Shown here: in pieces, positions 4,714 to 54,742 of the stretch
Position numbering within the stretch: the first letter of the stretch is position 1
How the letters are laid out: each line of letters starts with the position of its first letter
NCBI RefSeq assembly: GCF_004917065.1
Contig: NZ_SSYA01000002.1
Coordinates: forward strand, 597,897 to 661,896
Length of the DNA stretch: 64,000 nt
Direction: 5' to 3'
Source: Geomonas ferrireducens
GTDB lineage: Bacteria; Desulfobacterota; Desulfuromonadia; Geobacterales; Geobacteraceae
The notes under the pieces: model-generated
Told to the model about the DNA's origin: nothing
What the model saw: only the letters and a program-made list of their open reading frames with translations
Database searches by the model: none
Made by a program: the position numbers and the translations under genes

Positions 4714-7700
4714 GCACCTTGCGAGGCGTCATGACAGGAAAAACGGGCGCAATCCAGGCGGCAGGTAACGAAGAGGCCATGGCTCATCTTGCCGCCATAG
4801 TCGACTCTTCCGATGACGCAATTCTGAGCAAGAGCCGTGAAGGGATCATCACCAGTTGGAACCATGCCGCTGAAACGCTCTACGGCTACAGCGCCGAAGA
4901 GGCGGTCGGACGTAACATATCCTTCCTCGTCCCGGAAAGCCGGCGTGACGAGCTGCGCGAGATCACCGAGAAGATCCTGCGCGGCGAACGCATTCGCAAC
5001 CTGCAGACGGTGCGCCTGGCCAAAGGGGGGCGCGAAGTCCCCGTGTCCCTCACCCTCTCCCCGATCCTCGATAGCGGCGGAAATCTGACCGGCATCTCCA
5101 TCATCGCCCGCGAAGACGCCGAGCGCGCCCAGATGGAGCGTCTCTTGCGGGAAAGCGAGCGGTACTACCGTACCCTGGTGGAAATGGCCCCGGACCCGGT
5201 GCTGGTGCACCGCGGCGGCGACTTTCTCTACGCGAACTGCGCCGCGCTCGGCGTCTTCGGGGCGCAGGATCTCCATACGCTGCGCAGTCACACGCTGTAC
5301 GAACTGATTCATCCTGACGACAGGGAGGCGATGGAGCATAAGATCGTGGCGATGAAGGACGGGGAGGAAATCCCGCTGCTTGAGTTCCGCATCAGACGCC
5401 TGGACGGCGAGGAGCGGTTCATGGAAGGGTCTTCCACGGTCATCGTGTACCGGGGTAGCCCGGCGGTCCAGACCATCGCGCGCGACGTCTCCGAGCGTAA
5501 GGCGGCCCAGGCCGAGCATGAGGCCATGCTTCGCGAGCTCGCTTTTCAGCAAAGCCGCTTTGAGCTGGTAGTCGAGCAACTTCCCGTCGGCGTGGTGGTA
5601 GCAGAAGCGTCCTCCGGGAAGGTCGTCTACCAAAACGACGTCGTCCGTGACATTTTCCGCGTTCAACCGGAAGAGACGACCTCCGTTTCCGATTTCGACA
5701 GCTGGAAGCTGTACCGGTTGGATGGAAGCCATGTCTCGGCCCCGGAAATCCCCTTGAGCCGCGCCATAACCAGGGGGGAGACCGTGTTCGGCGAAGAGTA
5801 CCAGGTACTAAGGGGAGACGGCTCACGCGGTTTTGTGAGCATCAACGCGACCCCGCTGCGCGACATGTCCGGCAGCATCATATCCGGACTTGCCACTTTT
5901 ACCGACGTAACGGAAAGCAGGGTGGCGGCCAAGGCGCTTGCCGAGAGCGAGGAACGCCTGAAGCTTGCCCTCGATGCCGCCGAGATGGGGGCCTGTGACA
6001 TCGACGTAGCTACCGGAGAGGGTAACTGGTCACGCAGACACTTCCTCCTCATGGGATATCCTGCGCCGGACAGGGATCCCGCCCCCGCCTCACTTTCCAT
6101 GTGGCAGGACCTGATTCACGCCGAGGACAGGGAACGGGTCCTGTCGGCTCTTGATGAGGCCTGTCACCAGAACCAACTCTTCAGTTCGGAGCACAGGATC
6201 ATTCGCGCAGATAAAGGTGATGCCGTATGGGTCAACGTGATTGGGCGCTTCGTCTGCGAGCCCGCGGGAAGCTCCTGCCGTTTCATCGGTGTCATTTTCG
6301 ACGTGACCCGCCGCAAGGCGACCGAGGAGGAACTCCTGCGTTCCACGAGGAGGCTGCGCAACCTCGCCGATTCCATGCCCCAAATCGTCTGGACCGCGGG
6401 TCCCGACGGCACCATAGATTACCTGAACGCACACTTTCACAGCTATACCGGCATCGGCCCGGATTTCCTGAACGAATGCGGCGGGTCACCTTCGGGACTG
6501 ATCGCGTGTTGCATCCACCCGGACGACCGGCAGCGCACTGCCGAGCTCTGGGGGGAGGCGATTGCCACCGGGACGACATACCAGAACGAACAGCGCATCC
6601 TTGGCGCCGACGGTAGTTATCGCTGGCACCTAAGCCGTGCTACCGCCGAACGCGACGAACATGGCAAAGTAGCCAAGTGGTACGGGACCTCCACCGACAT
6701 TCACGAACTGAGGGGGGTGCAGGAGCGGCTGCGCTCCAGCGAGACGAAGTTTCGCTGGCTTTACGAGTCCAACCTGATCGCCATATTCTTCTGGAACCGC
6801 GATGGCAGGATCACCGACGCAAACGATGCCTACTGTGACCTGATCGGCCACACCGGGATAGAGTGCAGAAGCGGTGACCTGAACCTCGCCGATGTAACCG
6901 CCCCTGAGGATCGCGCAAAGGACCGGAGCGCGATGGACGAGATCATCTCCCGCGGTATCAGCAAGACCTACGAGAAGGTCTTTGTCCGTTCCAGAAACGG
7001 TCAGCGTGTTGCCGCGCTGACCGCCCTCGCTCGCATGGCCGACACCGACGAGGAAGGGATCGGTTTCGCCGTCGATCTTACGGAACTAAAACGCGCCGAG
7101 CAGGCGCTCAAGGACAATGAGGCCACCCTGAAGCTCGCGGTTGAGACGACCGGGCTCGGCATTTTTTCCATGGATCTGGCCACCGGATCGGGGGAGTGGT
7201 CGGCAATCGCGCGGCAGCATTACGGCCTTCCCAAAGATGCCGAGACCGATCTGGCGACTGTCCTGCGGTGTGTTCACCCGGAAGACAGGGGAAGGCTGGA
7301 GCAGATCGTTAAAGACGCACGCACCCCCGCCGGCGCCGGGCTTTACAGCGCAGAGTACCGAACCGTCGGATCTGTTGACGGTAAGGTGCGCTGGATCAGC
7401 ATGCGGGCGCGGGTCTCTTATGCCGAAGACGGTACACCGCTCAGGCTTGTGGGCGCCTGTATGAACATATCGGACATCGTCATGTCCCAGGAGGCGCTCA
7501 GGGAGGAGATGACCGAGCGTCTCAGGGCGGTGGAGGAGTTGCGCCGCCAGGAACAGCTTCTCATCAGGCAGGGGCGGCTTGCCGCCATGGGGGAGATGAT
7601 CGCCAACATCGCGCACCAGTGGCGTCAGCCCCTTAACACCCTTGGTCTCATCGTGCAGGAATTGCCCACCTACTACAACCAGGGGCTCTTCAACGAGGAT

Positions 7701-8243
7701 TACCTCGACACGAGCGTGGCCCGCGCCATGAAGGTGATCAACTACATGTCCCAAACCATCGACGGTTTCAGAAACTTCTTCGGCCCCGACAAGGAAAAGC
7801 AGAGGTTCAGGGCCCTCGACGTCCTGGAACAGACCTTGACCATACTTCAGGGGGCCTTCGCTGCGGCAAAGGTGGATATCGACCTGCAGGCCGACCCGGA
7901 CGCGTGGGTGGTCGGCATCCCGAACGAGTTCGCGCAGGTGCTCTTAAATATCCTTATGAACGCGAAGGACGCCTTGGTGGAGCGAAAAGTCGAGCGCCCG
8001 CGGGTGGAAGTGAGGCTGAGCGTGGCGGAAGGTAAGACGGTGATCACCATCGAGGACAACGCGGGAGGGATCCCCCAGGAGATCATCGATAAGGTTTTCG
8101 ACCCGTACTTCACCACCAAAGGGCCGGACAAGGGGACCGGCATAGGGCTTTTCATGTCGAAGACCATAGTGGAAAAGAACATGAAGGGGGCACTCACCGT
8201 GACCAACACCGGGGAAGGCGCCCGGTTCCGTATCGAGGTGTAG
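4710..8243 (+). CDS. Seven-PAS sensor histidine kinase
   Basis: A 1177-residue soluble kinase with no signal peptide or TM helix. About seven consecutive PAS/PAC units are marked by repeated linkers (AREDAERAQ, ARDVSERKA, FTDVTESR, IFDVTRRKA, TDIHELRG, AVDLTELKRA, NISDIVMSQ), covering residues about 25-930. The kinase core starts with a coiled coil and AHQWRQPLN (His969), followed by a HATPase domain with DNAGG and GTGIGL. The H-box and following region are very similar to those of the kinase at 324 (for example TIDGFRNFF versus TIDDFRNFF), so the two cores are paralogues and may share response regulators. The start overlaps the preceding stop as ATGA. Confidence 0.9.
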   Translation: MSTLRGVMTGKTGAIQAAGNEEAMAHLAAIVDSSDDAILSKSREGIITSWNHAAETLYGYSAEEAVGRNISFLVPESRRDELREITEKILRGERIRNLQTVRLAKGGREVPVSLTLSPILDSGGNLTGISIIAREDAERAQMERLLRESERYYRTLVEMAPDPVLVHRGGDFLYANCAALGVFGAQDLHTLRSHTLYELIHPDDREAMEHKIVAMKDGEEIPLLEFRIRRLDGEERFMEGSSTVIVYRGSPAVQTIARDVSERKAAQAEHEAMLRELAFQQSRFELVVEQLPVGVVVAEASSGKVVYQNDVVRDIFRVQPEETTSVSDFDSWKLYRLDGSHVSAPEIPLSRAITRGETVFGEEYQVLRGDGSRGFVSINATPLRDMSGSIISGLATFTDVTESRVAAKALAESEERLKLALDAAEMGACDIDVATGEGNWSRRHFLLMGYPAPDRDPAPASLSMWQDLIHAEDRERVLSALDEACHQNQLFSSEHRIIRADKGDAVWVNVIGRFVCEPAGSSCRFIGVIFDVTRRKATEEELLRSTRRLRNLADSMPQIVWTAGPDGTIDYLNAHFHSYTGIGPDFLNECGGSPSGLIACCIHPDDRQRTAELWGEAIATGTTYQNEQRILGADGSYRWHLSRATAERDEHGKVAKWYGTSTDIHELRGVQERLRSSETKFRWLYESNLIAIFFWNRDGRITDANDAYCDLIGHTGIECRSGDLNLADVTAPEDRAKDRSAMDEIISRGISKTYEKVFVRSRNGQRVAALTALARMADTDEEGIGFAVDLTELKRAEQALKDNEATLKLAVETTGLGIFSMDLATGSGEWSAIARQHYGLPKDAETDLATVLRCVHPEDRGRLEQIVKDARTPAGAGLYSAEYRTVGSVDGKVRWISMRARVSYAEDGTPLRLVGACMNISDIVMSQEALREEMTERLRAVEELRRQEQLLIRQGRLAAMGEMIANIAHQWRQPLNTLGLIVQELPTYYNQGLFNEDYLDTSVARAMKVINYMSQTIDGFRNFFGPDKEKQRFRALDVLEQTLTILQGAFAAAKVDIDLQADPDAWVVGIPNEFAQVLLNILMNAKDALVERKVERPRVEVRLSVAEGKTVITIEDNAGGIPQEIIDKVFDPYFTTKGPDKGTGIGLFMSKTIVEKNMKGALTVTNTGEGARFRIEV

Positions 8244-38533: not shown

Positions 38534-38620
38534 CGTGTTTCCCTCTCAGTTAGTTGCCTTGGAGTGGCGGACTGCAGATCCGCGCACTCTTTCCTTGCAG
38601 TGCACCACGATGAGAAGAAG

Positions 38621-38636
38621 AGCACGGTCTGTGCCA
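38621..38636 (-). promoter_or_regulatory. Sigma-54 (-24/-12) promoter of the Gly/Met-rich operon
   Basis: On the minus strand TGGCACA-N4-GTGCT keeps TGGCAC and the GC of the -12 element at the right spacing. It is about 90 bp before the start at 38533, and a palindromic enhancer-like site lies about 75 bp upstream. Confidence 0.65.
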
Positions 38637-38709
38637 GCCAAGGCCGACCAGTTAAAGCATTGAAATACAGCGCTTTCAATGAATGAATCTTCCGCCATGG
38701 CGTCAGATC

Positions 38710-38749
38710 GGTGCAACAAATTGCACCATGGATGCAGACGCCTTGCACC
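38710..38749 (-). promoter_or_regulatory. Palindromic enhancer-like site upstream of the sigma-54 promoter
   Basis: GGTGCAA-CAAA-TTGCACC (38710-38727) is a perfect 7-bp inverted repeat; another TTGCACC half-site begins at 38743, 22 bp from the first. The position, 75-110 bp upstream of the -24/-12 element and just beyond the stop of the NtrC-family gene, is typical for the binding site of such an activator. Confidence 0.6.
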
Positions 38750-38751
38750 AC

Positions 38752-40101
38752 CTAACTCTCGTCGAGCAGGCTGTGTTCCTTCAACTTGTACTGCAGCGAA
38801 CGGCGCGACATACCGAGTTCCTCGGCAGCTAACCGCCTGTTGCCGCCGTGCCTGGCCAGCGCCTGGGTGATCATCTCGCGTTCCGTCCCTTTCAGACGGT
38901 CACGGCTGCAGAGGCAACGCCCGTCCGACTGGCACACGATTTCTTCCGGAAGCGCCTCCTGTCTCACCATGTCCCGGGACAGGATCACCGCACGCTCCAT
39001 GACGTTTTGCAGTTCCCGGATGTTCCCGGGCCAGTGATAGCGGCGCAGCGTCGCAATCGCGTCGTAATCGATCCCTTTGAGGGATTTCCCCATCTGCTGA
39101 CAGAAACGCTGCATGAAGTATTCGACCAGGATGGGAATGGCGTCCTCCCTGTCGCGCAGCGGCGGCAGCGGTAACGGAAAGACGTTGAGCCGGTAGTACA
39201 GGTCCTCACGGAAGCGCTTCTCAGCCACTTCCTCGCGCAGGTTGCGGTTGGTGGCGGCGATGATCCTGACGTCCGCCTTGATTTCCCGTGTCCCCCCTAC
39301 CCTTTCAAAAGCGCGCTCCTGGATCACGCGCAACAGCTTGGCCTGCAGGGAAAGTGGCATCTCGCCGATCTCGTCCAGGAAGATGGTTCCACCTTTGGCA
39401 AGCTCGAATTTCCCCTGTCTGGCCTGGACGGCACCGGTGAAGGCACCTTTCTCGTGCCCGAAAAGTTCGCTCTCCAAAAGGTTTTCCGGGATCGCGGCGC
39501 AGTTAATGGCGACGAAGGCGGCGTTTTTGCGCGGGCTCAAGAGATGCACGGTACGCGCGACGAGTTCCTTGCCGGTACCGCTTTCCCCCATAATGAGGAC
39601 GTTCGCCATGGTGCCGGAGACGTCGTACACAAGCTGCCGCACCACGCGCATCGCGTCCCCGGCGAAAAGAAGCTCCTCGGGTGGAAGTCCAGCTGCCACA
39701 GCTTCCTTAAGGGAAAGGTACTCGCGCGCCCTTCCTTCAGCCTCTACCGTGCGCTGCACGAGGGCCAGGAGCGCCTGCGGGTCGTTCAGCGGCTTGGTCA
39801 GAAAATCCACCGCTCCTTCCTTGATGGCGGATACCGCCTCCTCTACGGCGCCAAATGCGGTTAGAAATATAAATGGCGGGGCGGCCAGGTCTGCGCGCGT
39901 TTCGCGAAAGATCTCGAGGCCGCTCTTTCCGGGCAGTTTCAGGTCGGAGACTACTACGTCGAAGCTGCGCCGGCGCAATTCGCGCAAGGCTTTCACACCG
40001 TCCGCGGCGCATTCGACCTCGTACCCTGCGTCCTGTAGGATGGTCTGCAGGAAACTGCGAAAGGTGTCGTCGTCCTCGATTACCAGCACTGTTCCCTTCA
40101 T
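38752..40101 (-). CDS. Sigma-54-dependent response regulator (NtrC/ZraR family)
   Basis: 449 residues: an N-terminal receiver (Asp53 in VSDLKLP, Lys in LTKPL), an AAA+ sigma-54 activation domain with Walker A GESGTGKE, the intact GAFTGA loop that contacts sigma-54, Walker B GGTIFLDEIGEM and the R-finger region, and a Fis-type helix-turn-helix (GGNRRLAAEELGMSRRSLQYKLKE). It is the downstream partner of the kinase at 40116 (14-nt gap). Sigma-54 promoters with upstream repeats occur at several metal operons of this island, and this is the only NtrC-type activator in the window, so it is the best candidate regulator (inference). Confidence 0.94.
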   Translation of the reverse strand: MKGTVLVIEDDDTFRSFLQTILQDAGYEVECAADGVKALRELRRRSFDVVVSDLKLPGKSGLEIFRETRADLAAPPFIFLTAFGAVEEAVSAIKEGAVDFLTKPLNDPQALLALVQRTVEAEGRAREYLSLKEAVAAGLPPEELLFAGDAMRVVRQLVYDVSGTMANVLIMGESGTGKELVARTVHLLSPRKNAAFVAINCAAIPENLLESELFGHEKGAFTGAVQARQGKFELAKGGTIFLDEIGEMPLSLQAKLLRVIQERAFERVGGTREIKADVRIIAATNRNLREEVAEKRFREDLYYRLNVFPLPLPPLRDREDAIPILVEYFMQRFCQQMGKSLKGIDYDAIATLRRYHWPGNIRELQNVMERAVILSRDMVRQEALPEEIVCQSDGRCLCSRDRLKGTEREMITQALARHGGNRRLAAEELGMSRRSLQYKLKEHSLLDES

Positions 40102-40115
40102 CTCGGCTCCTTCTT

Positions 40116-41342
40116 TTATCTATGCGTAGCTGCGGGGAGGCTGAGGATCACCCTGGTCCCCACCCCTTCCCTGCTATGCAGCGTGATGCTGCCGCCGTTT
40201 CCTTCAACAATTTTCTTGCATAGCGCGAGTCCCAAGCCGGTGCCGCGCGACTTGGTGGTGAAAAACGGCTCGAATACGTGCGGGCGGTGCTCGTCAGCGA
40301 TGCCGTGACCGTTATCCTCTACGGTGATGACCGTCTCCCTTCCTTGCCCCTCTGCGGTGAACCGCAACATCCCGCCGTCCGGCATAGCCTGGAGCGCGTT
40401 CCGCCCTAGGTTCAGCAGCGCCTGTTCCACGCGGTCCCGGTTCGCACGAGCCGAAACGTCGCCGGTACAATCCATCTTTATCTCGACTCCTTGGGCGCGC
40501 GCCTCTGGCTCCAGTAGGGAACGGACTTGATCGATCAGGTCACGGAGTTGGAAATCCCCACTTGCCGACGGCTCGTGCGCCGCATAGGTAAGTAGATCGT
40601 TGACCAGGGCCTCGAGACGCACCGCTTCGGTAACGATGCTCTGGGCGAAAGGACCGTTGCGCGACTCCTGCGGCTTCGCCGCGATGACCTGGGCGAACCC
40701 CTTGATGCCGGCCAGCGGGTTGCGGATCTCGTGGGCCAGCAGCGCGCCCATTTCGCCAAGTTTTGCCAGAGCATCCCGGCGAGCCAGTTCCTGCTTGTGG
40801 TTTTCCTCCCGCCGCGCATAACGTATCAGTACCGCGCAGAGCAGCCATCCGGCCAGGACAAGACCAAAGACAATGGTCGCATTGAGGCGGGCTCTGCGGA
40901 TCACCGCGTCGGCCCGGTAGGTGTGCAGCGTGAGCACCAAGGCAAGAGGTTCCCCCTGCACGGTGACCGGGGAAGTGAACTGGTAGGCGCGCTCTCCGGT
41001 GCCAAGGAGCACCCTGGTTTCAGACCGGGTCAGCAGCTGAGTTTTCCCTGCGGATTTAGGATCGGATGCGACGCCGATAAGATCCTTGTTGGAATGGAAA
41101 CGGTAGACACCACGACGGTCGATGAGCGCGAAGTAGGCGACATCGACCGGGTGGAAGGCGTGCAGGGTCTTGAAAGAAGGATCGTTCGCAGCCAGGTTTT
41201 CTATGGCCGTGGTGAGGGAAAGGGCAAGACCGCGCAGGTTCTCCTGTGCGATGGGGCCGGCTTGCCGGTAATCGTAAATCGAGAACCAGAGCATGGGGAC
41301 AGTGACGAGGATGACCAGCAGAACCGCTGCCTTCTTAAACAT
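40116..41342 (-). CDS. Membrane sensor histidine kinase (ZraS/AtoS-like)
   Basis: 408 residues. TM1 (about 5-23) and TM2 (about 150-172) enclose a periplasmic PAS/Cache-like domain of about 125 residues. The cytoplasmic part has HisKA with [19 protein letters not shown] (His204) and a HATPase domain with [16 protein letters not shown] and [12 protein letters not shown]. It is the cognate kinase of the NtrC-family regulator immediately downstream. By position its signal is probably periplasmic copper or silver, but no His/Met-rich metal site is obvious in the sensor domain. Confidence 0.9.
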
Positions 41343-42479: not shown

Positions 42480-42950
42480 CTACTTTACCGTGTACCAGAA
42501 CTTCGAGCTGCGCACCTGCCCGTCTTTCACCTTAAATTTGCACATGACGCCATACTTCCCTTTTTTTGAGAGGTCGAAGTCCGCACCGAAGTGTCCCTGC
42601 ATCCCCATCAGGTCCTTGGTCTGCTCCGCCTTGTCCGGCCCCTGAACTTTGACCTTCACGTCGCCCTCGGTGATGGCTTTGCCGGTCTTGGCGTCCTTGA
42701 ACGTGACCATAATATGATGGGTCTCCTTCATACCCTTGGGCATCTCCATGTCCATCGCCTTCATGTGCTCTTTCATGCTCAGGACCTTGAAGGTTGCCTT
42801 GACACCGTTGACGACCTCTTCGTGGGCGAGACTCCCCTCTTTCATCATCGACCCGTGATCCATATTCATTGAGCCGTGGTCCATGGCGAAGGAAGCGATC
42901 GGGGCGGTCAGTGCGAGTGCTGCTGCTACGAGGACGATGAGTTTCTTCAT
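42480..42950 (-). CDS. Met/His-rich periplasmic metal-binding protein with FixH/YtkA-like domain
   Basis: A 156-residue periplasmic protein: a signal peptide ending in IASFA, then a MDHGSMNMDHGSMM segment with repeated Met and His (a typical Cu/Ag ligand cluster), further Met-rich stretches (MKEHMKAMDMEMPKGM), and a beta-sandwich of the FixH/YtkA type (HHIMVTFKDAKTGKAITEGDVKVKVQGP, HFGADFDLSKKGKYGVMCKFK). It probably binds periplasmic Cu(I)/Ag(I). AAAGGAGA precedes the ATG. A clear sigma-54 promoter and GAATATTC-type repeats lie upstream, showing separate control from cusCBA. Confidence 0.82.
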   Translation of the reverse strand: MKKLIVLVAAALALTAPIASFAMDHGSMNMDHGSMMKEGSLAHEEVVNGVKATFKVLSMKEHMKAMDMEMPKGMKETHHIMVTFKDAKTGKAITEGDVKVKVQGPDKAEQTKDLMGMQGHFGADFDLSKKGKYGVMCKFKVKDGQVRSSKFWYTVK

Positions 42951-42992
42951 GTTTCATTCTCCTTTGATGTGAAAAGTAATCATGCTTCGTTT

Positions 42993-43008
42993 AGCATGCG
43001 GTATGCCA
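42993..43008 (-). promoter_or_regulatory. Sigma-54 (-24/-12) promoter of the Met/His-rich gene
   Basis: On the minus strand TGGCATA-N4-ATGCT has the GG and GC dinucleotides at exact spacing, with the -12 GC about 45 nt before the start codon at 42950. Confidence 0.7.
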
Positions 43009-43058
43009 AGAGCTGAAGGTGCGTATTTGCTGGATCCGTGACTCCCGATGGCGGAGTG

Positions 43059-43098
43059 GGTGCAGAATATTCCACTCACGCAGTAGCATATTCCGCTG
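43059..43098 (-). promoter_or_regulatory. Paired GAATATTC-type enhancer sites
   Basis: GAATATTC at 43065-43072 and GCATATTC at 43086-43093 are 21 bp apart, 57-85 bp upstream of the -24/-12 promoter. The first is embedded in GTGCA-N6-TCCAC, the same span as the palindrome GTGCA-N6-TGCAC at 38711-38726. Confidence 0.55.
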
Positions 43099-46000
43099 TC
43101 AGTGCTTCATCCCGGAGTATTTCAGTTTTCCTTTTTTAAGATCGTGCTTCTTCATCAGGACGAAGATCACCGGGGTCATGATGAGTACGTGGACTGCCGA
43201 GGAGATCATGCCGCCGATCATCGGCGCCGCGATCGGTTTCATTACGTCGGCACCGGTTCCCGACGACCACATGATCGGAACGAGGCCGAGGAGCGCGACG
43301 GCAACAGTCATCAGCTTCGGTCTCAGGCGCAAGACCGCTCCCTCGAAGGTAGCGTCATAGATGTCCTGCTCGGTTACGGGCCCCTTGAGGAGCCTTCGGT
43401 CGAGCGCCTCGTGCAGATAGATGACCATGACCACCCCGGTCTCGACCGCAATGCCGTAAAGGGCGATGAAGCCGACCCATACCGCGACGGACATGTTGTA
43501 ACCGAGGAGCTTCACCAGGTAAACTCCGCCCACCAGCGCGAATGGTACGGAGAGCATGACCATGCTCGCCTCGAGCGCCGAATGGAAGGTGAAGTATAGC
43601 AGGATGAAGATGATCAGAATCCCTGCAGGTACCAGCATCTGCAGCCTCGCCTTCGCGCGGACCTGGTTCTCCCACTGTCCCGACCAGGCGACGTAATATC
43701 CCGGGGGGAGCTTCAGCTGTTTTTCGAGAACCGTCTTCGCCTCGTTCACGAAGCCGCCCATGTCACGTCCGCGCACGTTCAGGAAGACGATGGAGCGCAA
43801 AAGCCCCCCCTCGCTGTTGATCTCGGGCGCACCGGTGGAGACCTTCAGCTTCGTGACCAGCGAAAGCGGGACCTGCGATCCCTCCATGCCGGAGACCAGG
43901 ATGCGCTGAATGGACGGAATGTCGCTGCGCAACTCGCGCATGTAACGCAGGCGGATCGGGAAGCGGTTGCGCCCCTCGACCGAGGTGGAGAGCATCTCGC
44001 CGCCGAGCGCCGTTGAAATCACTTCCTGGATGTCCCCAACCTGCACGCCGTAGCGCGCGGCCGCTTCACGGTCGATATCGATGTCGATGTAGTTGCCGCC
44101 GGTGACACGTTCGGCGACGACGTCGGCGGCTCCCGGTACCGTCTTCAGGATCCCCTCGGCCTGCACCGCCAGATCCTTCAGGACGTTCAGGTCGGAGCCG
44201 AAGATCTTGACGCCGAGGTCGGTGCGCACGCCGGTTGAGAGCATGTTGATGCGGTTGATGATCGGCTGGGTCCAGCCGTTTCTAACACCTATCTGCTGCA
44301 GCTTGCCGTCCAGCTCGGAGACGATGTCCGCCTTCGTTACACCGGGGCGCCATTGCTCCTTGGGCTTCAGGATTATGATGCTCTCGAACATGGAAACCGG
44401 CGCCGGGTCCGTGGAGGTCTCCGCGCGCCCCACCTTGCCGAGCACGTGCTCCACCTCAGGGACGCTCTTGATCACGGTGTCCTGTACCTGGATCAGGCGT
44501 TTCGCCTCATTGATCGAGATGTTCGGAAGCGTAACCGGCATGTACAGTAGCGATCCCTCGTCCAGAGGCGGCATGAACTCGCTGCCGATGCTCATGAACA
44601 TCGGGATGGCGATGGCGAGCGCCACTACGTTCAGCGCTATGGTGGTCTTCTTCCACTTGAGCACCCACCTGATGACCGGCGAGTACAGCTTTATGAAGAA
44701 GCTGGAGACCGGGTTGGAGCTCTCCGGCGGCATCTTCCCCTTCATGAAGAAGTACATGAGCACCGGGACCAGGGTGATGGCGATGAACGCCGACCCCATC
44801 ATGGAGAAGGTCTTGGTGAAGGCGAGCGGATGGAACATCTTCCCTTCCTGTCCCTCGAGCAGGAAGACCGGGACGAAGGAGAGGATGATGATGGCGAGCG
44901 AGAAGAAGATGGCGCGTCCCACCTGCTTGGCCGAGGTGATGATCACCTCGAGGCGCTTCTCTTTGCGCTCCTCGGGCGGCATCTCGGAAAGGTGTCGGTA
45001 GCAGTTCTCCACCATGATGACGCCCGCGTCGACCAGGACGCCGATGGCGATGGCGATCCCCCCTAGCGACATTATGTTCGACGTCACTCCCATGAGCTTC
45101 ATGGTGATGAAGGAGATGAGCACGGCGATGGGCAGGGTCAGCACGATGACAAGGGCGCTCTGGAAGTGGAGCAGGAACACGAGGATCACCAGCGAGACGA
45201 CAATCGATTCCTCTATGAGCGAGTGTTTCAGCGTGTCGATGGCGCGGGCGATGAGGTCGCTTCGGTCGTAGGAGACCATGATCTTCACGCCGGGAGGAAG
45301 CCCCTTCTCGAGCGAAACGATCTTCTCCTTGACCCGGTCGATGACGTCCTTGGCGTTTTCACCGTAGCGCATGACCACGATGCCGCCTACGGCCTCACCC
45401 TGCCCGTTCATGTCGAGCATGCCGCGGCGGATGGCGCCACCCAGTTGCACGGTGCCGAGATTTTTCACGTAGATCGGGGTGCCGCGCATGTCGGCGCCCA
45501 CGACGATGTCTTCAAGGTCGGCGGTCGACTTCACGTAGCCTCGGCCGCGGATCAGGTACTCGGCGTCGGCCTGCTCGAGCAGCCTCCCCCCCACGTCGTT
45601 GTTCGACTTCTTGATCGCCTCGGCCACCTGCCCCACCTTGATGTTGTAGGCAAAGAGGCGGTTGGGATCGAGGTCGACCTGGTACTCGCGTACGAAGCCG
45701 CCGATGGAGGCGACCTCGGCCACGCCTGGAACGGTATTCAACTGGTAACGGACGAACCAGTCCTGCAGCGTGCGCAGCTGTTCGAGGTCGTACCCCTTCC
45801 CTTCCAGCGTGTACCAGAAGACGTGTCCGACACCGGTGCCGTCAGGGCCAAGCGTCGGCACCACGCCTGCCGGAAGCAGCGAGGCGGCGTAGTTCAGGCG
45901 CTCCAGAACGCGTGTCCTCGCCCAGTAGATGTCCGCCTTGTCCTCGAAGATCACGTAGATCATGGAGAAACCGAAGGCGGAGGAGGCACGCACCGCGCGT

Positions 46001-46236
46001 ACCTGCGGGAGCCCCTGCAGGTTCACGGCGAGCGGATAGGTCACCTGGTCCTCGACCACCTGCGGAGAACGGCCGGGGTAATCGGTGAAGACGATTACCT
46101 GGTTGTCGGAAAGGTCCGGGATGGCATCCACCGGCGTCTTATAGACGGCCCACACGCCCCAGGCGATCACCAGAGCGAACATCATCAGGATGACGACTCG
46201 GTTGCGGGCGGAATATTCGATGATCTTTTCAATCAT
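43099..46236 (-). CDS. cusA: Cu(I)/Ag(I) RND efflux pump, CusA family
   Basis: A 1045-residue heavy-metal RND transporter (E. coli CusA is 1047). It has two large periplasmic loops, twelve TM helices, and the TM4 motif LVDAGVIMVENCYRHL with the proton-relay acidic residues. Met566 (SLLYMPVTLP), Met616 (PVSMFES) and Met665 (RINMLSTG) have the 50- and 49-residue spacing of the E. coli three-methionine site (573/623/672), which indicates Cu(I)/Ag(I) rather than Zn/Co. It is the third gene of cusCBA, 33 nt after cusB. The gene is full length. Confidence 0.95.
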   Translation of the reverse strand: MIEKIIEYSARNRVVILMMFALVIAWGVWAVYKTPVDAIPDLSDNQVIVFTDYPGRSPQVVEDQVTYPLAVNLQGLPQVRAVRASSAFGFSMIYVIFEDKADIYWARTRVLERLNYAASLLPAGVVPTLGPDGTGVGHVFWYTLEGKGYDLEQLRTLQDWFVRYQLNTVPGVAEVASIGGFVREYQVDLDPNRLFAYNIKVGQVAEAIKKSNNDVGGRLLEQADAEYLIRGRGYVKSTADLEDIVVGADMRGTPIYVKNLGTVQLGGAIRRGMLDMNGQGEAVGGIVVMRYGENAKDVIDRVKEKIVSLEKGLPPGVKIMVSYDRSDLIARAIDTLKHSLIEESIVVSLVILVFLLHFQSALVIVLTLPIAVLISFITMKLMGVTSNIMSLGGIAIAIGVLVDAGVIMVENCYRHLSEMPPEERKEKRLEVIITSAKQVGRAIFFSLAIIILSFVPVFLLEGQEGKMFHPLAFTKTFSMMGSAFIAITLVPVLMYFFMKGKMPPESSNPVSSFFIKLYSPVIRWVLKWKKTTIALNVVALAIAIPMFMSIGSEFMPPLDEGSLLYMPVTLPNISINEAKRLIQVQDTVIKSVPEVEHVLGKVGRAETSTDPAPVSMFESIIILKPKEQWRPGVTKADIVSELDGKLQQIGVRNGWTQPIINRINMLSTGVRTDLGVKIFGSDLNVLKDLAVQAEGILKTVPGAADVVAERVTGGNYIDIDIDREAAARYGVQVGDIQEVISTALGGEMLSTSVEGRNRFPIRLRYMRELRSDIPSIQRILVSGMEGSQVPLSLVTKLKVSTGAPEINSEGGLLRSIVFLNVRGRDMGGFVNEAKTVLEKQLKLPPGYYVAWSGQWENQVRAKARLQMLVPAGILIIFILLYFTFHSALEASMVMLSVPFALVGGVYLVKLLGYNMSVAVWVGFIALYGIAVETGVVMVIYLHEALDRRLLKGPVTEQDIYDATFEGAVLRLRPKLMTVAVALLGLVPIMWSSGTGADVMKPIAAPMIGGMISSAVHVLIMTPVIFVLMKKHDLKKGKLKYSGMKH

Positions 46237-46269
46237 GTAAAACCTCAGTGCTCAATGGAATGCCGGCAA

Positions 46270-47673
46270 CTACATCTTCATGTCGTCCATGTTCATACCG
46301 CCCTTCTTGGGAGCAGCCGGTGCGGCCGGGGCGCCGTGCCCTTCGTGTCCGCCACTCGCGCCGGGAGCGGCAGGAGTCCCTTTAGCGGGAGCCGCGGCAC
46401 CGCCGTGTCCCTCGTGGCCGCCTCCGCCTGAGCCGCCGGCAAGCTGCGCCTCGGAGTCGATCAGGTAGCCGCCGGAAGCCGCAACCTTCTCGCCCTGCTT
46501 CACCCCGGAGAGGATCTGCACCTTGTCGCCCACGCGGGCACCCACCTGTACGTCGCGCGGCTCGAACATCCCCGGCTGGGACTCGACCCAGACCACCTGG
46601 CGCTTCCCGGTGTCCATGAGCGCGGTGACCGGAACCACCAGAGCGTTCCCGAGCGGCGCCTTGATGCTCGCGTTGACGAACATGTCGGGCTTCAGTTTCA
46701 GCCCCGGGTTGGGAAGATCCACCCTCACCTTCACGGTACGGGTTTTGGGATCGAGGAAGGGGTAGATGAAGGAGACGCGCCCCGCGAAGGTCTTGCCCGG
46801 GTAGGACTGCGAGACGATCTCGACGCGCTGCCCCATCTTCACGAAGGAGAACTCGTTTTCGTACACCTCGACCTCGACCCAGACACTGGAGAGGTCGGCG
46901 ATGCTGAAGAGGGGATCACCCATGTTGACGTATTGCCCCTCCTGGACGATTTTCTCGATGACGATCCCGGAGAGCGGCGTGTAGATGGGAAGCTTGATGT
47001 TCGGGTGCCCCGCCTTCTCGAGTCCTGCGATCTGTGCATCCTTGACGCCCAGAAGCTTGAGCCTTTGGCGTGCCGAAGCGACCAGTCCCTCGCCTCCCTG
47101 CGAAATGGCCTCTATGGTTGATTTCTTGAACTGGTCGCGGCTTCTCAGGGCGAGAAGGTATTCCTGCTGGGCGGCAACAAGGTCGGGCGAGTAAACCTCG
47201 GCAACCGGCCTTCCCTTGGAAACATAGGCGCCGACCGTGTTCACGTTCAGCTTATCGATGCGTCCCGCCACCCATGCGGTCACCTTCGCCTGCCTCGCCT
47301 GGTCGTACTGCACGATGCCGACTGCGTTGATCTCCTTGGATAGAGGCGCGTAATCGGCGGCTACCGTAGCCACGTTGGCCATGACCGACTGGGTCGGCGA
47401 GAGGGAGACATGGCCGAGCATCTTCTGCTCTTCAGGGCTTGCCTGAGCTCCTTCGACCTTCTTGATCAGCTGCATCCCGCAGATTGGGCAGGTTCCGGGC
47501 TTGTCCTTGATGATAAAGGGGTGCATGGCGCAGGTGTAGAGCACCGGTCCCTGGGCGGTTTTTTCCTTCCCTGCGGGAGCCTGGTGTTTCTGCTGCCAGA
47601 AGTAGTATCCTCCGCCTGCTGCCGCAACCAGGACCAGGATGATGGGAACCGCAACCTTCAAGCTTTTGTTCAT
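46270..47673 (-). CDS. cusB: Periplasmic adaptor of the Cus efflux system, with N-terminal metal-binding domain and His/Met tail
   Basis: A 467-residue membrane-fusion protein. An N-terminal anchor helix is followed by a heavy-metal-binding domain (Cys48, His51, Cys62, Cys65 in CAMHP...CPICGM), the barrel-sandwich and alpha-hairpin (AEVYSPDLVAAQQEYLLALRS), and the beta-barrel and membrane-proximal domains (PIYTPLSGIVIEKIVQEGQYV, LSSVWVEVEVYENE). The C-terminus carries two HEGHG repeats and MNMDDMKM, an extra His/Met site not found in E. coli CusB. It connects CusA with the TolC-type channel. The SD is upstream of the ATG at 47673. Confidence 0.93.
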   Translation of the reverse strand: MNKSLKVAVPIILVLVAAAGGGYYFWQQKHQAPAGKEKTAQGPVLYTCAMHPFIIKDKPGTCPICGMQLIKKVEGAQASPEEQKMLGHVSLSPTQSVMANVATVAADYAPLSKEINAVGIVQYDQARQAKVTAWVAGRIDKLNVNTVGAYVSKGRPVAEVYSPDLVAAQQEYLLALRSRDQFKKSTIEAISQGGEGLVASARQRLKLLGVKDAQIAGLEKAGHPNIKLPIYTPLSGIVIEKIVQEGQYVNMGDPLFSIADLSSVWVEVEVYENEFSFVKMGQRVEIVSQSYPGKTFAGRVSFIYPFLDPKTRTVKVRVDLPNPGLKLKPDMFVNASIKAPLGNALVVPVTALMDTGKRQVVWVESQPGMFEPRDVQVGARVGDKVQILSGVKQGEKVAASGGYLIDSEAQLAGGSGGGGHEGHGGAAAPAKGTPAAPGASGGHEGHGAPAAPAAPKKGGMNMDDMKM

Positions 47674-47707
47674 AGGTAAGTACCTCGTGGGTGGAAATTA
47701 AATAACA

Positions 47708-49057
47708 TCACTGGTGCCCATCGGCATGTTCGCTCTCGCTGCCCTGCTCGTGCACCGAAGGTGCGTTAGAGGGAGGCGCCGAAGAGAGATCCCTGCCGAC
47801 CAGCGCTTCCAACTGGGCCAGCTTCATCTGGTAGTCCGCCATGGAGTCGTAGTACTCGCGCTCGTAGTTGAAGAGCGTCACCCGGTTGTCGAGCAGGGTC
47901 AGGAAATCGACCTTGTTGACCCGGTAACCGATGACGGCAGATTCCAGCGACTGCTCGGCCTGCGGGAGGATCCCGGTGGTGTAGAGATCGACCAGTTTCC
48001 TGCGCCGGTCCATCTGGGCCAGAAGATCGTTGATACCCGAGGATATGGTGTTTCTAGCGGCCGCGAGCTCGGCGTCGCCCATGCTCACCTCGGAGGTGGA
48101 CTCAGCAACCATCGCCTGGCGGCGCGCCTTCTGGATGGGAAGGTTGAAGGTGACCCCCAGCGAGTACATGTCGGAGCCGTCGCTCCCCATCGCCTTGTCG
48201 CGCTGCATGTACTCGAAGGAGACGTTGAAATCCGGGTAGGATTCCTTCTGCGCAAGCAGGCGCCCCGCTTTCCCCTTCTCGATCTGGGCCCGGACCGTTT
48301 TCAACTGCGGACGGCTATCCTCGGCCATGTCGAGCAACTGCTCTGAGGTGTAACCGAACGGGGGGAGCTTGAAGTCGCTTATCTCACCCACCTTGGTGCT
48401 CTGCGGACGGTTCAGCAGCGAGTTGAGATTGACCTCGAGGCTTCTGCGCTGCTGTTCCAGGGAGATCTTCATGTCGAGCATCTTAGAGCGCTCGAGGAGC
48501 GCCTTGTAGATGTCCTGCTGCGCCCCCTGCCCCACCGAGTACTTGGTCTGGGCCAAGGTAATGAAGTCGTCTAGGATCTTGATGTTTTTGTCGAGGATCG
48601 CGAGGGATCTGTCAGTGAAATAGATCTGGTAGTAGGTTTCCTTCACCATCCTGGTGAGTTCCAGCTTTCTTTCCTCGACGCTCCAGCGGTACCCTTCCGC
48701 CTCGGCGGCTGCGATGTCTTCTTTCAGCTGCCTTTTTCCCGCGAACGGGAACAGCTGGCTTATGCCGATAACCTTCTGAGTCATGCCGTCGCGCTTGAAG
48801 TTGACCGGATCGGTGACGACGCCGTTCTGGATCTTCAGCATCAGCATGGGATCTTCCAGGGCGCCGGCTTGCTTGATGCGGTTTCGGTACATCTGCCACC
48901 GCGCGGAGGAGGACTTCAGCTCAGGGTTGTTCTCCAGGGCGGATTGCACCAACAGGTCGAGGTTTTCGGGGGTGGGCTTTGTGGCGTCGGCGTGGACTGC
49001 AGGAGCGGCCAACAGAAGTGACAGTAACAGGTACAGCGGAAATAGCCGGTATTTCAT
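47708..49057 (-). CDS. cusC: Outer-membrane efflux channel, TolC/CusC family
   Basis: A 449-residue exported protein with a signal peptide (LLLSLLLAAPAVHADA) and two outer-membrane-efflux repeats typical of TolC channels (NPELKSSSARWQMYRNRIKQAGALEDP; AKTRYSVGQGAQQDIYKALLERSKML-like region; QARRQAMVAESTSEVSMG and LLDNRVTLFNYEREYYDSM). The C-terminus is His/Glu-rich (HEQGSESEHADGHQ). It is the first gene of the cus operon and provides the outer-membrane exit duct. A sigma-54-like promoter and four phased AT-rich sites lie upstream. Confidence 0.92.
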   Translation of the reverse strand: MKYRLFPLYLLLSLLLAAPAVHADATKPTPENLDLLVQSALENNPELKSSSARWQMYRNRIKQAGALEDPMLMLKIQNGVVTDPVNFKRDGMTQKVIGISQLFPFAGKRQLKEDIAAAEAEGYRWSVEERKLELTRMVKETYYQIYFTDRSLAILDKNIKILDDFITLAQTKYSVGQGAQQDIYKALLERSKMLDMKISLEQQRRSLEVNLNSLLNRPQSTKVGEISDFKLPPFGYTSEQLLDMAEDSRPQLKTVRAQIEKGKAGRLLAQKESYPDFNVSFEYMQRDKAMGSDGSDMYSLGVTFNLPIQKARRQAMVAESTSEVSMGDAELAAARNTISSGINDLLAQMDRRRKLVDLYTTGILPQAEQSLESAVIGYRVNKVDFLTLLDNRVTLFNYEREYYDSMADYQMKLAQLEALVGRDLSSAPPSNAPSVHEQGSESEHADGHQ

Positions 49058-49097
49058 GGTGACTCCGGAAACTTGGCGATATCTTTAGCTTTGACAG

Positions 49098-49113
49098 TAC
49101 ACAATCCGTGCCG
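49098..49113 (-). promoter_or_regulatory. Sigma-54-like promoter of cusCBA
   Basis: On the minus strand CGGCACG-N4-GTGTA resembles TGGCACG-N4-TTGCW, but the invariant -12 GC reads GT, so the match is partial. It lies about 40 nt before cusC and 58-107 bp downstream of the phased sites. Confidence 0.4.
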
Positions 49114-49170
49114 TACACGTAACATACTGACTTAGCGTGATTCACTGCTTAAGACGGTGCTGTGCGAGAA

Positions 49171-49240
49171 GGATATTCACCAGTCGGCGTGGAATATTAT
49201 ACAACCACCGGGAAATATTTAACGCAATGCCCTGATATTT
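49171..49240 (-). promoter_or_regulatory. Four phased AT-rich sites upstream of cusCBA
   Basis: Eight-base words begin at 49171 (GGATATTC), 49192 (GAATATTA), 49213 (AAATATTT) and 49233 (TGATATTT), at intervals of 21, 21 and 20 bp, all sharing ATATT at positions 3-7. They lie in the 306-bp gap 49058-49363, which otherwise holds no credible gene. Confidence 0.55.
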
Positions 49241-49324
49241 CTCGGCATAAAAGGAAAAATCTGAAGAACACACAGTGGGAAAAAGAGTGTTCTCCAGATT
49301 CTTCAGACTAAAGTCGTCGGCCTC

Positions 49325-49355
49325 GCCCCCCACGTGACAGAGGAACGCGGGGGGC
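49325..49355 (-). terminator. Hairpin after the ABC transporter operon
   Basis: GCCCCCC (49325-49331) pairs with GGGGGGC (49349-49355), 9 nt beyond the stop at 49364. No clear T-run follows on the minus strand. Confidence 0.4.
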
Positions 49356-49363
49356 TTGCAAAA

Positions 49364-50032
49364 CTAATCGCTGATCAGGCCGTCCTTTAAGCGTATGGTC
49401 CGGTCCGAATAAGCGCCGTTCTCCTGGTTGTGCGTGACCATTACCACGGTCTGCCCCGCCTCGTTCAGTTGCCTGAAAAGCGCCATGACTTCCTCGCTCG
49501 TCTTGGAGTCGAGGTTTCCCGTCGGCTCGTCGGCAAGAAGGATGTGCGGGTTGTTGACGATGGCCCGGGCGATGGCGACGCGCTCCTGCTCACCGCCGGA
49601 AAGCTGGTTCGGAAGCCGGTCCGTTTTCGCGCCGAGACCGACCCGCTCGAGCGCCTTGCGCGCAGCATCCCTCTTCTCTGCCGTGCTCATCTTCACGATG
49701 GCAAGCGGGAGCATGACGTTTTCCAGCGCGGTAAGGTATTGGATCAAGTGAAAGGATTGGAACACGAACCCGAGGTTCTGAGCCCTGAAGTCGGCCAACT
49801 GCTCGCTTCCCAACTGGTAAAGCTTGACGCCTGCCATCTCGACATCCCCGCTCGTGGGATGGTTCATGCCGCCGAGAACGGACAGCAGGGTACTCTTCCC
49901 AGAACCGGACTGCCCCATGATGGTGATGAACTCTCCAGCCTCGATGGTTATGTCGACTCCGCGCAGCGCCTCAACCAGGTCCGCTCCGGTCTGATACTGC
50001 TTCTTCACGTTCTTGATTTCTATGATAGCCAT
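49364..50032 (-). CDS. ABC transporter ATP-binding protein (LolD/MacB type)
   Basis: 222 residues with Walker [12 protein letters not shown], signature [15 protein letters not shown], Walker [14 protein letters not shown] and the H-loop VTHNQE, all intact. The LolD/MacB/FtsE class works with FtsX-type permeases in mechanotransmission rather than classical transport. It starts 9 nt after the permease gene and forms a two-gene operon with it. Its place between copA and cusCBA suggests a role in envelope copper handling (inference). Confidence 0.93.
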
Positions 50033-50041
50033 GTCGTCCTC

Positions 50042-51202
50042 TTATAGAGCCCTGAGGGCTTCGGTCGGATCCATCTTGCTTGCGTGCAGCGCCGGGTAGA
50101 GGCTTGCCAGGATGCCCAGGAGAAGCGCGAGCCCGACGGAACCGAAGGCGATGGTGGTATCCCATACCAGGTGGGCGTTCTTGCTTTCAGCCATGAAAGG
50201 CAGGGCAAGTTTCGCACCTCCCATGCCCGCGGCGTATCCAAGGAGCCCGGCCAGGATGCTAACCAGGGCAGCTTCGAGCAGTATGATGCGCATGATGTGA
50301 CTCTTCCTGAAGCCGATGGCGCGGAAGACGCCGATCTCAGTGGTGCGCTCGTTCACGCTCCCCATCATGGTCACGAAGACGATCAGGGAGCCGATGAAGA
50401 CGACCACCCCCGCCATGGCGTAGGAGAAACGTTTGAACTGGTCCAGCGCTTTAAGACGTCCGGCGACTACCTGCTGAATCGCGGAAACCTTGCTGTCGGG
50501 AAGCAGTTCGGCGATCTGGTTCACCATGTCGCTGATCGGGCAGCCGGAGCAAAGTGCCGCCACCTCTGCCATGGTGATCTTCCCCTCCTTGCCGAGGATC
50601 TTCTGCACCTTCGGGAGCGAGGCGAAGACCAGCGAGTCGTCCTGAGAGCCGGTCTGGTTCAATACACCCGCCACCTTGAACTTCTCCCCTTTTATCTCGA
50701 TGGTGTCGCCGGAACTTGCGTTCAGCGTATTGGACGCGTCACTGCCTAGCAGGATGTCGTTCTCACCCTTCGGTTCCTCACCGAAAATCTGCCACCACTG
50801 TTTCATCTTCAGTTCGGCGGGGAATTCAACCCCAACCAGCAGCACGTCGTGACCATTTATCTTCACGCCGCCCAGCACCTTGGGCGAGATCGCCGAGATG
50901 TTCTTGTTGTTCTTGATCTTGCGGACCTTGTCGAGGTCTTCCTGCTTGATCTCGCGCTGGTCGAAGGTGACGCCGCCAAGGCTGATGCCGCCGTAGTTCA
51001 TGGACAGGCCGTTACTCTGCGGCGTGATCAGGATGTTCGCACCGAACTCGTCCATCTTGCGTTCTATGTCGTTGGACATGGAGCGGGTCAGGGTGACGAG
51101 GGTTACGATGGTGGCGATGCCGACCATAAGGCCGATGGTGAGGAAAGCCATCTTTGCCTTGCGCCGTTTCAGGTTGTTGATCGAGATGGTGTGCAGTTTC
51201 AT
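50042..51202 (-). CDS. FtsX-like ABC permease with extracytoplasmic CxxC
   Basis: 386 residues. TM1 (about 18-40), an extracytoplasmic MacB-PCD domain of about 210 residues, then three C-terminal TM helices (about 260-285, 305-335, 350-378), the architecture of FtsX/LolC/MacB permeases. In the extracytoplasmic domain Cys218 and Cys221 (ALCSGCPIS) form a CxxC motif not generally part of this family, which could be a redox or Cu(I) site. A strong sigma-54 promoter lies about 200 bp upstream, with GAATATTC repeats further up. Confidence 0.88.
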   Translation of the reverse strand: MKLHTISINNLKRRKAKMAFLTIGLMVGIATIVTLVTLTRSMSNDIERKMDEFGANILITPQSNGLSMNYGGISLGGVTFDQREIKQEDLDKVRKIKNNKNISAISPKVLGGVKINGHDVLLVGVEFPAELKMKQWWQIFGEEPKGENDILLGSDASNTLNASSGDTIEIKGEKFKVAGVLNQTGSQDDSLVFASLPKVQKILGKEGKITMAEVAALCSGCPISDMVNQIAELLPDSKVSAIQQVVAGRLKALDQFKRFSYAMAGVVVFIGSLIVFVTMMGSVNERTTEIGVFRAIGFRKSHIMRIILLEAALVSILAGLLGYAAGMGGAKLALPFMAESKNAHLVWDTTIAFGSVGLALLLGILASLYPALHASKMDPTEALRAL

Positions 51203-51276
51203 CTTGTCTCCGTGATGCGATATCGATCGATTGAGTTGCTGCTGAATGCTTCAAGACGTCCAGTATTCGCTTCTGG

Positions 51277-51345
51277 TTCCCCTCCCCTTGCGGGAGGGGG
51301 GGAGTGATCCGCCGAAGCGCGCACGCGAAGGCGGGTGAGGAAGAT
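51277..51345. repeat. Dispersed intergenic repeat (CCCTCCCC...GGGTGAGG type)
   Basis: CCCCTCCC-CTTGC-GGGAGGGG hairpin followed by CGAAGGCGGGTGAGG. It resembles the longer element at 54743 and belongs to the widespread family of short non-coding repeats in proteobacterial genomes. It lies in the untranslated leader between the sigma-54 promoter at 51409 and the permease. Confidence 0.5.
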
Positions 51346-51408
51346 GCCGCGGGACCGAGGAGGCGGTATCCCACGGCATCCTTTCCAACGACTACCGGGT
51401 TCCTCATT

Positions 51409-51424
51409 ATCAAGGTACGTGCCA
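51409..51424 (-). promoter_or_regulatory. Sigma-54 (-24/-12) promoter of the ABC operon
   Basis: On the minus strand TGGCACG-N4-TTGAT differs from the consensus TGGCACG-N4-TTGCW only at one base (C to A in the -12 GC). It is about 205 bp from the permease start. The remainder of the 346-bp gap 51203-51548 holds the repeat at 51277 and the paired sites at 51503, with no gene. Confidence 0.6.
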
Positions 51425-51502
51425 ACCCTGGGGGACCGCTCAAGTAGGCGAAACTTCGTCATATCCAGACACGACAGGGAAAAACGCGGCACGGCCGCGG
51501 AA

Positions 51503-51532
51503 GAATATTCAACGTACCCCGAGGAATATTCC
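51503..51532 (-). promoter_or_regulatory. Paired GAATATTC enhancer sites
   Basis: Two exact GAATATTC words (51503-51510 and 51524-51531) are 21 bp apart, 79-107 bp upstream of the -24/-12 promoter at 51409; the second extends to GGAATATTCCAC. Confidence 0.6.
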
Positions 51533-51548
51533 ACACACGGCCGTCCTG

Positions 51549-54581: not shown

Positions 54582-54602
54582 GGCTCCCTCCGGCTTTCTT
54601 TG

Positions 54603-54619
54603 ATACCCCTGGGGGGTAT
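54603..54619 (-). promoter_or_regulatory. CsoR operator, distal from -35
   Basis: ATACCCC-N3-GGGGTAT, a perfect 7-bp inverted repeat with a 3-bp centre, just upstream of the csoR ribosome-binding site and 32 bp from the second operator. Confidence 0.7.
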
Positions 54620-54631
54620 AGATGCAAAGCC

Positions 54632-54660
54632 AGCATACCCCCTAGGGGTATTGTCGTCAA
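54632..54660 (-). promoter_or_regulatory. csoR-copA promoter with CsoR operator in the spacer
   Basis: On the minus strand TTGACG-N17-TATGCT is a sigma-70 promoter. The spacer and -10 contain ATACCCC-N3-GGGGTAT (54635-54651), so bound CsoR would block RNA polymerase. Geometry and palindrome match known CsoR operators. Confidence 0.75.
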
Positions 54661-54742
54661 GAGGGAATTGTTGTGGACGGAATCAGGGAGGAACTGTCGA
54701 ATACTGACGCCAGGACGGCATGGTCTAAGGGCGGATCACATA

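Follow-up and report, generated by a model that had tools for sequence, protein, structure and literature searches.

Paired palindromic sites ahead of sigma-54-type promoters of metal-efflux operons in Geomonas ferrireducens and their probable regulator, R2

The window analysed here is a stretch of 64,000 nucleotides of the Geomonas ferrireducens genome (C2:597897-661896 of the 4.8-Mb genome G000, with contigs C1, C2 and C3), in which repeated ATATT-containing words stand upstream of three minus-strand operons, abcP-abcA, cusC-cusB-cusA and ytkA. The words are real, conserved switch sites ahead of metal-efflux genes, and the comparisons below suggest that they are most likely read by a regulator encoded elsewhere than the NtrC-family regulator at 38752 (RR). 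They are very probably tandem dimer sites of R2, the regulator of the NtrC-type pair HK2-R2, and would drive a sigma-54 metal-efflux regulon. The sites, their conservation, their register with the promoters and the linkage and co-occurrence with HK2-R2 can be read directly from the sequences. A preliminary description of the window had proposed one regulator acting as a dimer array on a sigma-54 metal regulon, which conservation, register and sequence bear out, and had named RR as the likely activator, which they do not. HK2, R2, abcP, abcA, ytkA, germ, p37880, p36971 and p36118 are working labels, and HK denotes the neighbour of RR at 40116. Positions given without a contig are those of the window.

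Paired sites and their conservation

The eight GAATATTC-like words of the preliminary description are all present, each with ATATT at positions 3-7, and its phasing of 20-21 bp was likewise recovered: the spacings are 21 bp ahead of ytkA, 21, 21 and 20 bp ahead of cusC, and 21 bp ahead of abcP. The arrays are listed below with their E-values from profile R1, which was built from 33 arrays of G000 and its relatives; the source arrays match R1 and the site matrix by construction.

51498..51536, minus strand: abcP array, two palindromic sites 21 bp apart, words 51503 and 51524 (profile R1, E 1.4e-6)
49166..49204, minus strand: cusC array, conserved pair, words 49171 and 49192 (profile R1, E 1.3e-6)
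49211..49243, minus strand: two weak, lineage-specific distal cusC sites, words 49213 and 49233 (sequence comparison)
43060..43098, minus strand: ytkA array, two sites 21 bp apart, words 43065 and 43086 (profile R1, E 4.3e-6)

ATATT occurs 18 times on the plus strand of the window. Five ATATT pairs lie 20-22 bp apart, as compared with a mean of 0.015 and a maximum of 1 in 200 dinucleotide shuffles. The site unit is a 14-bp palindrome, GTRGRATATYCYAC, repeated about every 20-22 bp (matrix from 81 sites). Genome-wide, 61 14-mers differ from GTRGRATATYCYAC by at most two mismatches, against 59 for the reversed pattern. Single 14-mers were therefore rejected as regulon markers, and the information lies in the pairing. 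Two more exact GAATATTC words, at 46211 and 16032, are unpaired and lie within coding frames.

Among 15 same-genus sequences, the third cusC site can be made out in three (G000, G001 and G010) and the fourth only in G000 and G010; since these sites are seen in so few, the pair 49171/49192 is taken as the conserved cusC unit. In the ytkA leader, compared in nine genomes, most of the invariant positions belong to the two sites, to the promoter TGGCA and TGCT, and to the region near the gene start; the sequence of the spacer that separates array and promoter has diverged. The ytkA site of G009 reads GTAGGATATCCTAC, both halves of the palindrome having changed together.

The preliminary description had asked for the sites in orthologous upstream regions, and 12 same-genus loci of this layout do have the pairs at all three corresponding places, with spacings of 21-22 bp. 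All three arrays are also kept in G005 and G018 (loci L200 and L201). For the order Geobacterales, arrays were sought with the site matrix (81 sites, 13 genomes) at a pair score of at least 27 and at most 1.5 kb upstream. They were found at 96 of 129 homologues (45/55 for abcP, 29/38 for cusC and 22/36 for ytkA), and the reversed-sequence control gave 0/129. When the 37 rows from the 13 matrix genomes, all positive, are left out, arrays remain at 59 of 92 homologues. The abcP array lies about 1.1 kb upstream in many other genera because HMA and FtrD-like genes intervene.

At E 0.001 or better, profile R1 matches 40 of 58 relatives, some of which contributed arrays to it, and it finds five places in G000, three in the window and one each on C3 and C2:

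G000:C3:46740-46776 (L186 8739-8778): fourth array, directly after HK2 and before an HMA-domain (copper-chaperone-like) gene and an FtrD-like gene (profile R1)
G000:C2:307229-307262 (L232, gene 7397-7708): fifth array, ahead of the gene for a secreted-looking protein of 103 aa (profile R1)

Family profile scans gave no match for the 103-aa protein; its homologues have arrays in G002, G005 and G007. An ATATT pair at G000:C2:687925 was rejected as an additional array, as it lies inside a 214-aa open reading frame and has no R1 match at E of 1 or less. The remaining ATATT pairs beyond the window, two on C1 and three on C3, were not reported by profile R1.

Promoters and helical register

The minus-strand -24/-12 elements expected downstream of each set of sites were found for all three operons:

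51408..51425, minus strand: abcP -24/-12 element TTGGCACGTACCTTGATA, 83 bp from the proximal site centre (similar element in relatives)
49097..49114, minus strand: cusC -24/-12-like element ACGGCACGGATTGTGTAC, 62 bp from the proximal site centre (sequence)
42992..43009, minus strand: ytkA -24/-12 element TTGGCATACCGCATGCTA, 61 bp from the proximal site centre (sequence)

Two of these are imperfect, the -12 part being GT in cusC and TTGA instead of TTGC in abcP. Elements are also present after the C3 array (GTGGCACGTTCCTTGAAA) and the C2 array (TTGGCATGCCTGATGCTC), so that all five arrays of G000 have one downstream, with the cusC and TTGA class imperfect. From the centre of the proximal site to the GG of the -24 part, the distances in G000 are 61 bp for ytkA, 62 bp for cusC, 83 bp for abcP, 84 bp for the HMA gene and 60 bp for the C2 gene, and the four cusC sites stand 62, 83, 104 and 124 bp from the GG.

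Similar steps are seen over all arrays, where 64 array-promoter distances from 20 genera fall into groups of 60-65, 71-74, 77-86 and 93-96 bp, corresponding to slots at about 62, 72, 83 and 94 bp. Promoter matches numbered 64, compared with an average of 1.3 in shuffled downstream DNA. Counting all arrays once per genus and distance in the range of 50-110 bp, the best period is 10.9 bp with a vector length of 0.67, which none of 2000 uniform draws reached (maximum 0.447, each at its best period); the exact strength of the periodicity is uncertain, as the promoter was the best match within 150 bp under a scoring set by hand and the genera are not independent. The same operon type occupies different slots in different genera, as would be expected when whole helical turns are gained or lost. 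Together, the elements, the phasing and the helical-step distances support the earlier proposal of sigma-54-type promoters with dimer sites on one face of the DNA.

Candidate regulators of the arrays

HK2-R2 is the favoured regulator pair. The domains of R2 are REC, AAA+ sigma-54 and a Fis-type HTH, and GAFTGA is present. In other genera HK2-R2 lies between abcA and cusC: of 20 R2 loci, chosen as the best R2 matches, 12 show this contiguous group, and ATATT pairs stand ahead of abcP, cusC or ytkA in many of these loci. The genus of the window has no HK2-R2 at this place and the pair is split: in G000, R2 (67%) lies at C1:1973556 in the cluster ispB-R2-tlpA-ccdA, and HK2 (60%) at C3:45651. The arrangement ispB-HK2-R2-tlpA-ccdA occurs intact in seven fetched loci of other genera (L187, L188, L189, L191, L192, L193 and L194). 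In the window genus, at least 13 genomes have an array whose start lies 7-18 bp from where the HK2 match ends. The recognition-helix motif IPRHxxxYRxEK is found in 38/38 R2 rows including the G000 copy. In addition to the window-type locus, G007 has another cus locus that carries an HK2-R2 of its own (L131, C1:2110000-2129900); the cusC array there is weak (17.8).

R2 was found in 53 of the 58 genomes, counting G049, where it reads in two pieces, and at least one of the methods detected an array in each of the 53. No array was found in the five R2-less genomes (G021, G031, G034, G046 and G050), of which the surroundings of abcP were examined only in G046 and G050 and those of RR in G021, G046 and G050. 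G021, G031 and G034 also have no abcP at the threshold used and are weak negatives, while G046 and G050 possess an abcP relative (55-56%) without an array. The untargeted profile alone detected arrays in 40/53 genomes with R2 versus 0/5 without it; targeted looks added arrays in G026 (31.7) and G048 (30.7), both R2-positive. In G032 and G033, arrays are present, HK2-R2 is missing at cus and R2 occurs only in the ispB cluster, which suggests that action of R2 in trans is not peculiar to Geomonas.

In a survey of 297 genomes across the phylum, R2 relatives (E 1e-165 or better) were detected in 13, six of them outside the order. Two of these, G115 and G078, carry HK2-R2 close to cus-like genes, joined in G078 by abcPA and FtrD, and have looser pairs such as GAATAGTC; G253 has pairs and no cus within the stretch examined, and no pairs were seen in the stretches examined of G318, G336 and G180.

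Several observations weigh against R2 as the reader. In G000, R2 and HK2 are encoded apart from one another and from cus, and the 20 kb around R2 (L119) showed no array. A tree of 42 regulators, which splits R2 and RR with full support, places the G000 R2 outside the clade (95/90) of all cus-linked R2 and in an unresolved base with the ispB-linked ones, the group to which it belongs. Array detection was more targeted in R2-positive genomes, and the genomes are related, so that Fisher values for the co-occurrence overstate the association. Finally, 33 of the 129 homologues (10 abcP, 9 cusC and 14 ytkA) showed no array within 1.5 kb upstream; six of the ten genomes in the array-less abcP rows (G019, G022, G025, G026, G028 and G053) show one elsewhere or farther upstream.

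RR, the candidate of the preliminary description, is encoded next to the operons and also has AAA+ sigma-54 and HTH domains and GAFTGA. Its features, and those of a control region close to it, are as follows:

38752..40101, minus strand: RR, NtrC-family regulator, not favoured as reader of the arrays (domains)
38710..38727, minus strand: GGTGCAATTTGTTGCACC, GTGCA...TGCAC palindrome upstream of p37880, probable RR site (comparison of 46 sequences)
38620..38637, minus strand: -24/-12 element CTGGCACAGACCGTGCTC of the p37880 operon, GG 83 bp from the palindrome (sequence)

All 46 RR sequences compared, from the window and 45 loci, have HK as a direct neighbour; p37880 is usually near, and cus is near only in some. 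HK, and usually p37880, p36971 and p36118, accompany RR orthologues more constantly than cus does. A GTGCA-N5 to 9-TGCAC palindrome lies 19-37 bp past the RR stop in 34 of the 46 and before p37880 upstream of HK in another four; in the other eight it was found at neither place. To judge from this linkage, the palindrome at 38710-38727 is probably the site of RR itself. The segment 38620-38727 looks like a second sigma-54 control unit in its own right, with RR as its probable reader and with its palindrome kept in 38 of 46 related sequences.

It is unlikely that both regulators act on the arrays, R2 as the ancestral reader and RR as one recruited to them or cross-talking in the window genus. 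This would suit a genus in which R2 and HK2 are unlinked while RR is close to the targets, but the sites show no drift toward the RR palindrome, the genus retains that palindrome separately, and HK2 stands beside an array in the 13 or more genomes mentioned above.

That RR with HK binds the arrays and activates the three operons is quite improbable. RR is an intact NtrC-family regulator on the same strand downstream of ytkA, in the same neighbourhood in 12 same-genus loci. However, orthologues of at least 57% identity occur in 39 of the 58 genomes and are missing from 17 of the 53 that bear arrays, including G005 and G018 with all three arrays. RR and the arrays show no association (arrays in 36/39 genomes with RR and 17/19 without), RR goes with its own palindrome and its own linked genes, and its recognition helix differs from that of R2, IPRH being found in 0/45 RR rows (MSRRSLQYKLKEH in G000). 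On these grounds RR was rejected as reader of the arrays.

A dimeric repressor or another regulator independent of sigma-54 is a very doubtful alternative. Palindrome pairs alone cannot separate an activator from a repressor, but sites that precede -24/-12 elements by 60-95 bp, at distances falling in helical steps, are typical of an activator working at a distance, and the linkage with HK2-R2 points the same way. Chance AT-rich words, which would agree with single sites at control level genome-wide, are already refuted by conservation at three places; the five pairs against 0.015 in shuffles and the reversed control of 0/129 also speak against them.

For the favoured pair, we infer R2 binding, phosphotransfer between the split partners HK2 and R2, a metal signal and the direction of regulation, and propose the following course. 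On sensing its signal, for which Cu(I) or Ag(I) in the envelope is the most likely candidate, HK2 would phosphorylate R2. Dimers of R2 would then fill at least two sites on one face of the DNA, 21 bp apart, and assemble the AAA+ ring. Across some 60-95 bp of looped DNA, roughly six to nine turns kept in helical register, the ring would reach the sigma-54 polymerase and open it at the -24/-12 promoters. The targets switched on in the window would be abcPA, cusCBA and the Met/His-rich protein encoded by ytkA, and further targets would be the HMA/FtrD-like pair beside HK2 on C3 and the small secreted-looking protein on C2. The nature of the signal is suggested by the targets, as CusCBA, a MacB-like ABC pair, HMA, FtrD-like and Met/His-rich exported proteins would fit Cu(I) or Ag(I).

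Gene layout, known systems and significance

The minus-strand order in the window is csoR, copA, a small HMBD protein, [array] abcP-abcA, [array] cusC-cusB-cusA, [array] ytkA, a Germane-domain protein, HK, RR, and p37880 onwards. The genes behind the three arrays are:

50042..51202, minus strand: abcP, FtsX/MacB-like permease (family match)
49364..50032, minus strand: abcA, ABC ATPase (family match)
47708..49057, minus strand: cusC, outer-membrane efflux protein (family match)
46270..47673, minus strand: cusB, membrane-fusion protein with HMBD (family match)
43099..46236, minus strand: cusA, CusA/CzcA-family RND pump (family match)
42480..42950, minus strand: ytkA, Met/His-rich exported protein (open reading frame; no match in Pfam or NCBIfam)

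Between abcA and cusC, at 49245-49308, an inverted repeat followed by a T-rich stretch resembles a terminator, and relatives show a similar one. Ahead of csoR, at 54582-54700, lies a GC-rich inverted repeat of the type TACCCCC-GGGGGTA, which we take to be what a separate, CsoR-controlled csoR-copA unit would have.

An NtrC-type activator with paired enhancers and a sigma-54 promoter is a known kind of system. The present one resembles NtrC, ZraR and AtoC in REC, AAA+ sigma-54 and Fis-type HTH domains, GAFTGA, paired palindromic upstream sites and -24/-12 promoters; to our knowledge, its site sequence, 21-bp array and cus/abc targets differ from those of these systems. NCBIfam equivalogs remain below their cut-offs here, with 465 of 714 bits for AtoC, 458 of 558.6 for NtrC and, for ZraR, 370.7 (R2) and 368.6 (RR) of 760 bits. 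In Escherichia coli, cusCBA is under two-component control by CusSR, of which CusR is of the OmpR type and works at sigma-70 promoters. Two-component control of cusCBA would be shared, whereas the regulators linked to cus here are NtrC-type. Many relatives have an NtrC-type pair next to cus; no search aimed at OmpR-type homologues was made. HK2 scores 124 bits, compared with the 292.55 required by the heavy-metal kinase family TIGR01386.

ZraSR, a metal-linked example of an NtrC-family system, is also mentioned in PMC12316311. In the same phylum, Desulfovibrio vulgaris has many NtrC-type response regulators with assigned targets, according to the main text of two sigma-54 regulator maps (PMC4641369, PMC3333781), in which a search for terms gave no ATATTC and no copper target. 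No description of the regulon, the motif, the split pair or the stepwise register was found in the openly licensed literature searched. A more far-reaching reading, which is fairly probable, is that of an order-wide sigma-54 regulon of Cu/Ag type whose array keeps helical register to the promoter in whole-turn steps across 20 genera, and whose kinase and regulator genes have become separated in Geomonas while the sites were kept.

The adjacent NtrC-type pair, with its other motif and other likely targets, advises caution in assigning a regulator to its nearest neighbours. The stepwise enhancer-promoter distances form a natural data set on the rigidity of short bacterial enhancer loops and, if our reading is true, evolution has repeated the face-of-helix experiment for short-loop enhancers many times. 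Under the same reading, a metal-defence system common in Geobacterales would gain a regulator, the motif bound by it and five target operons.

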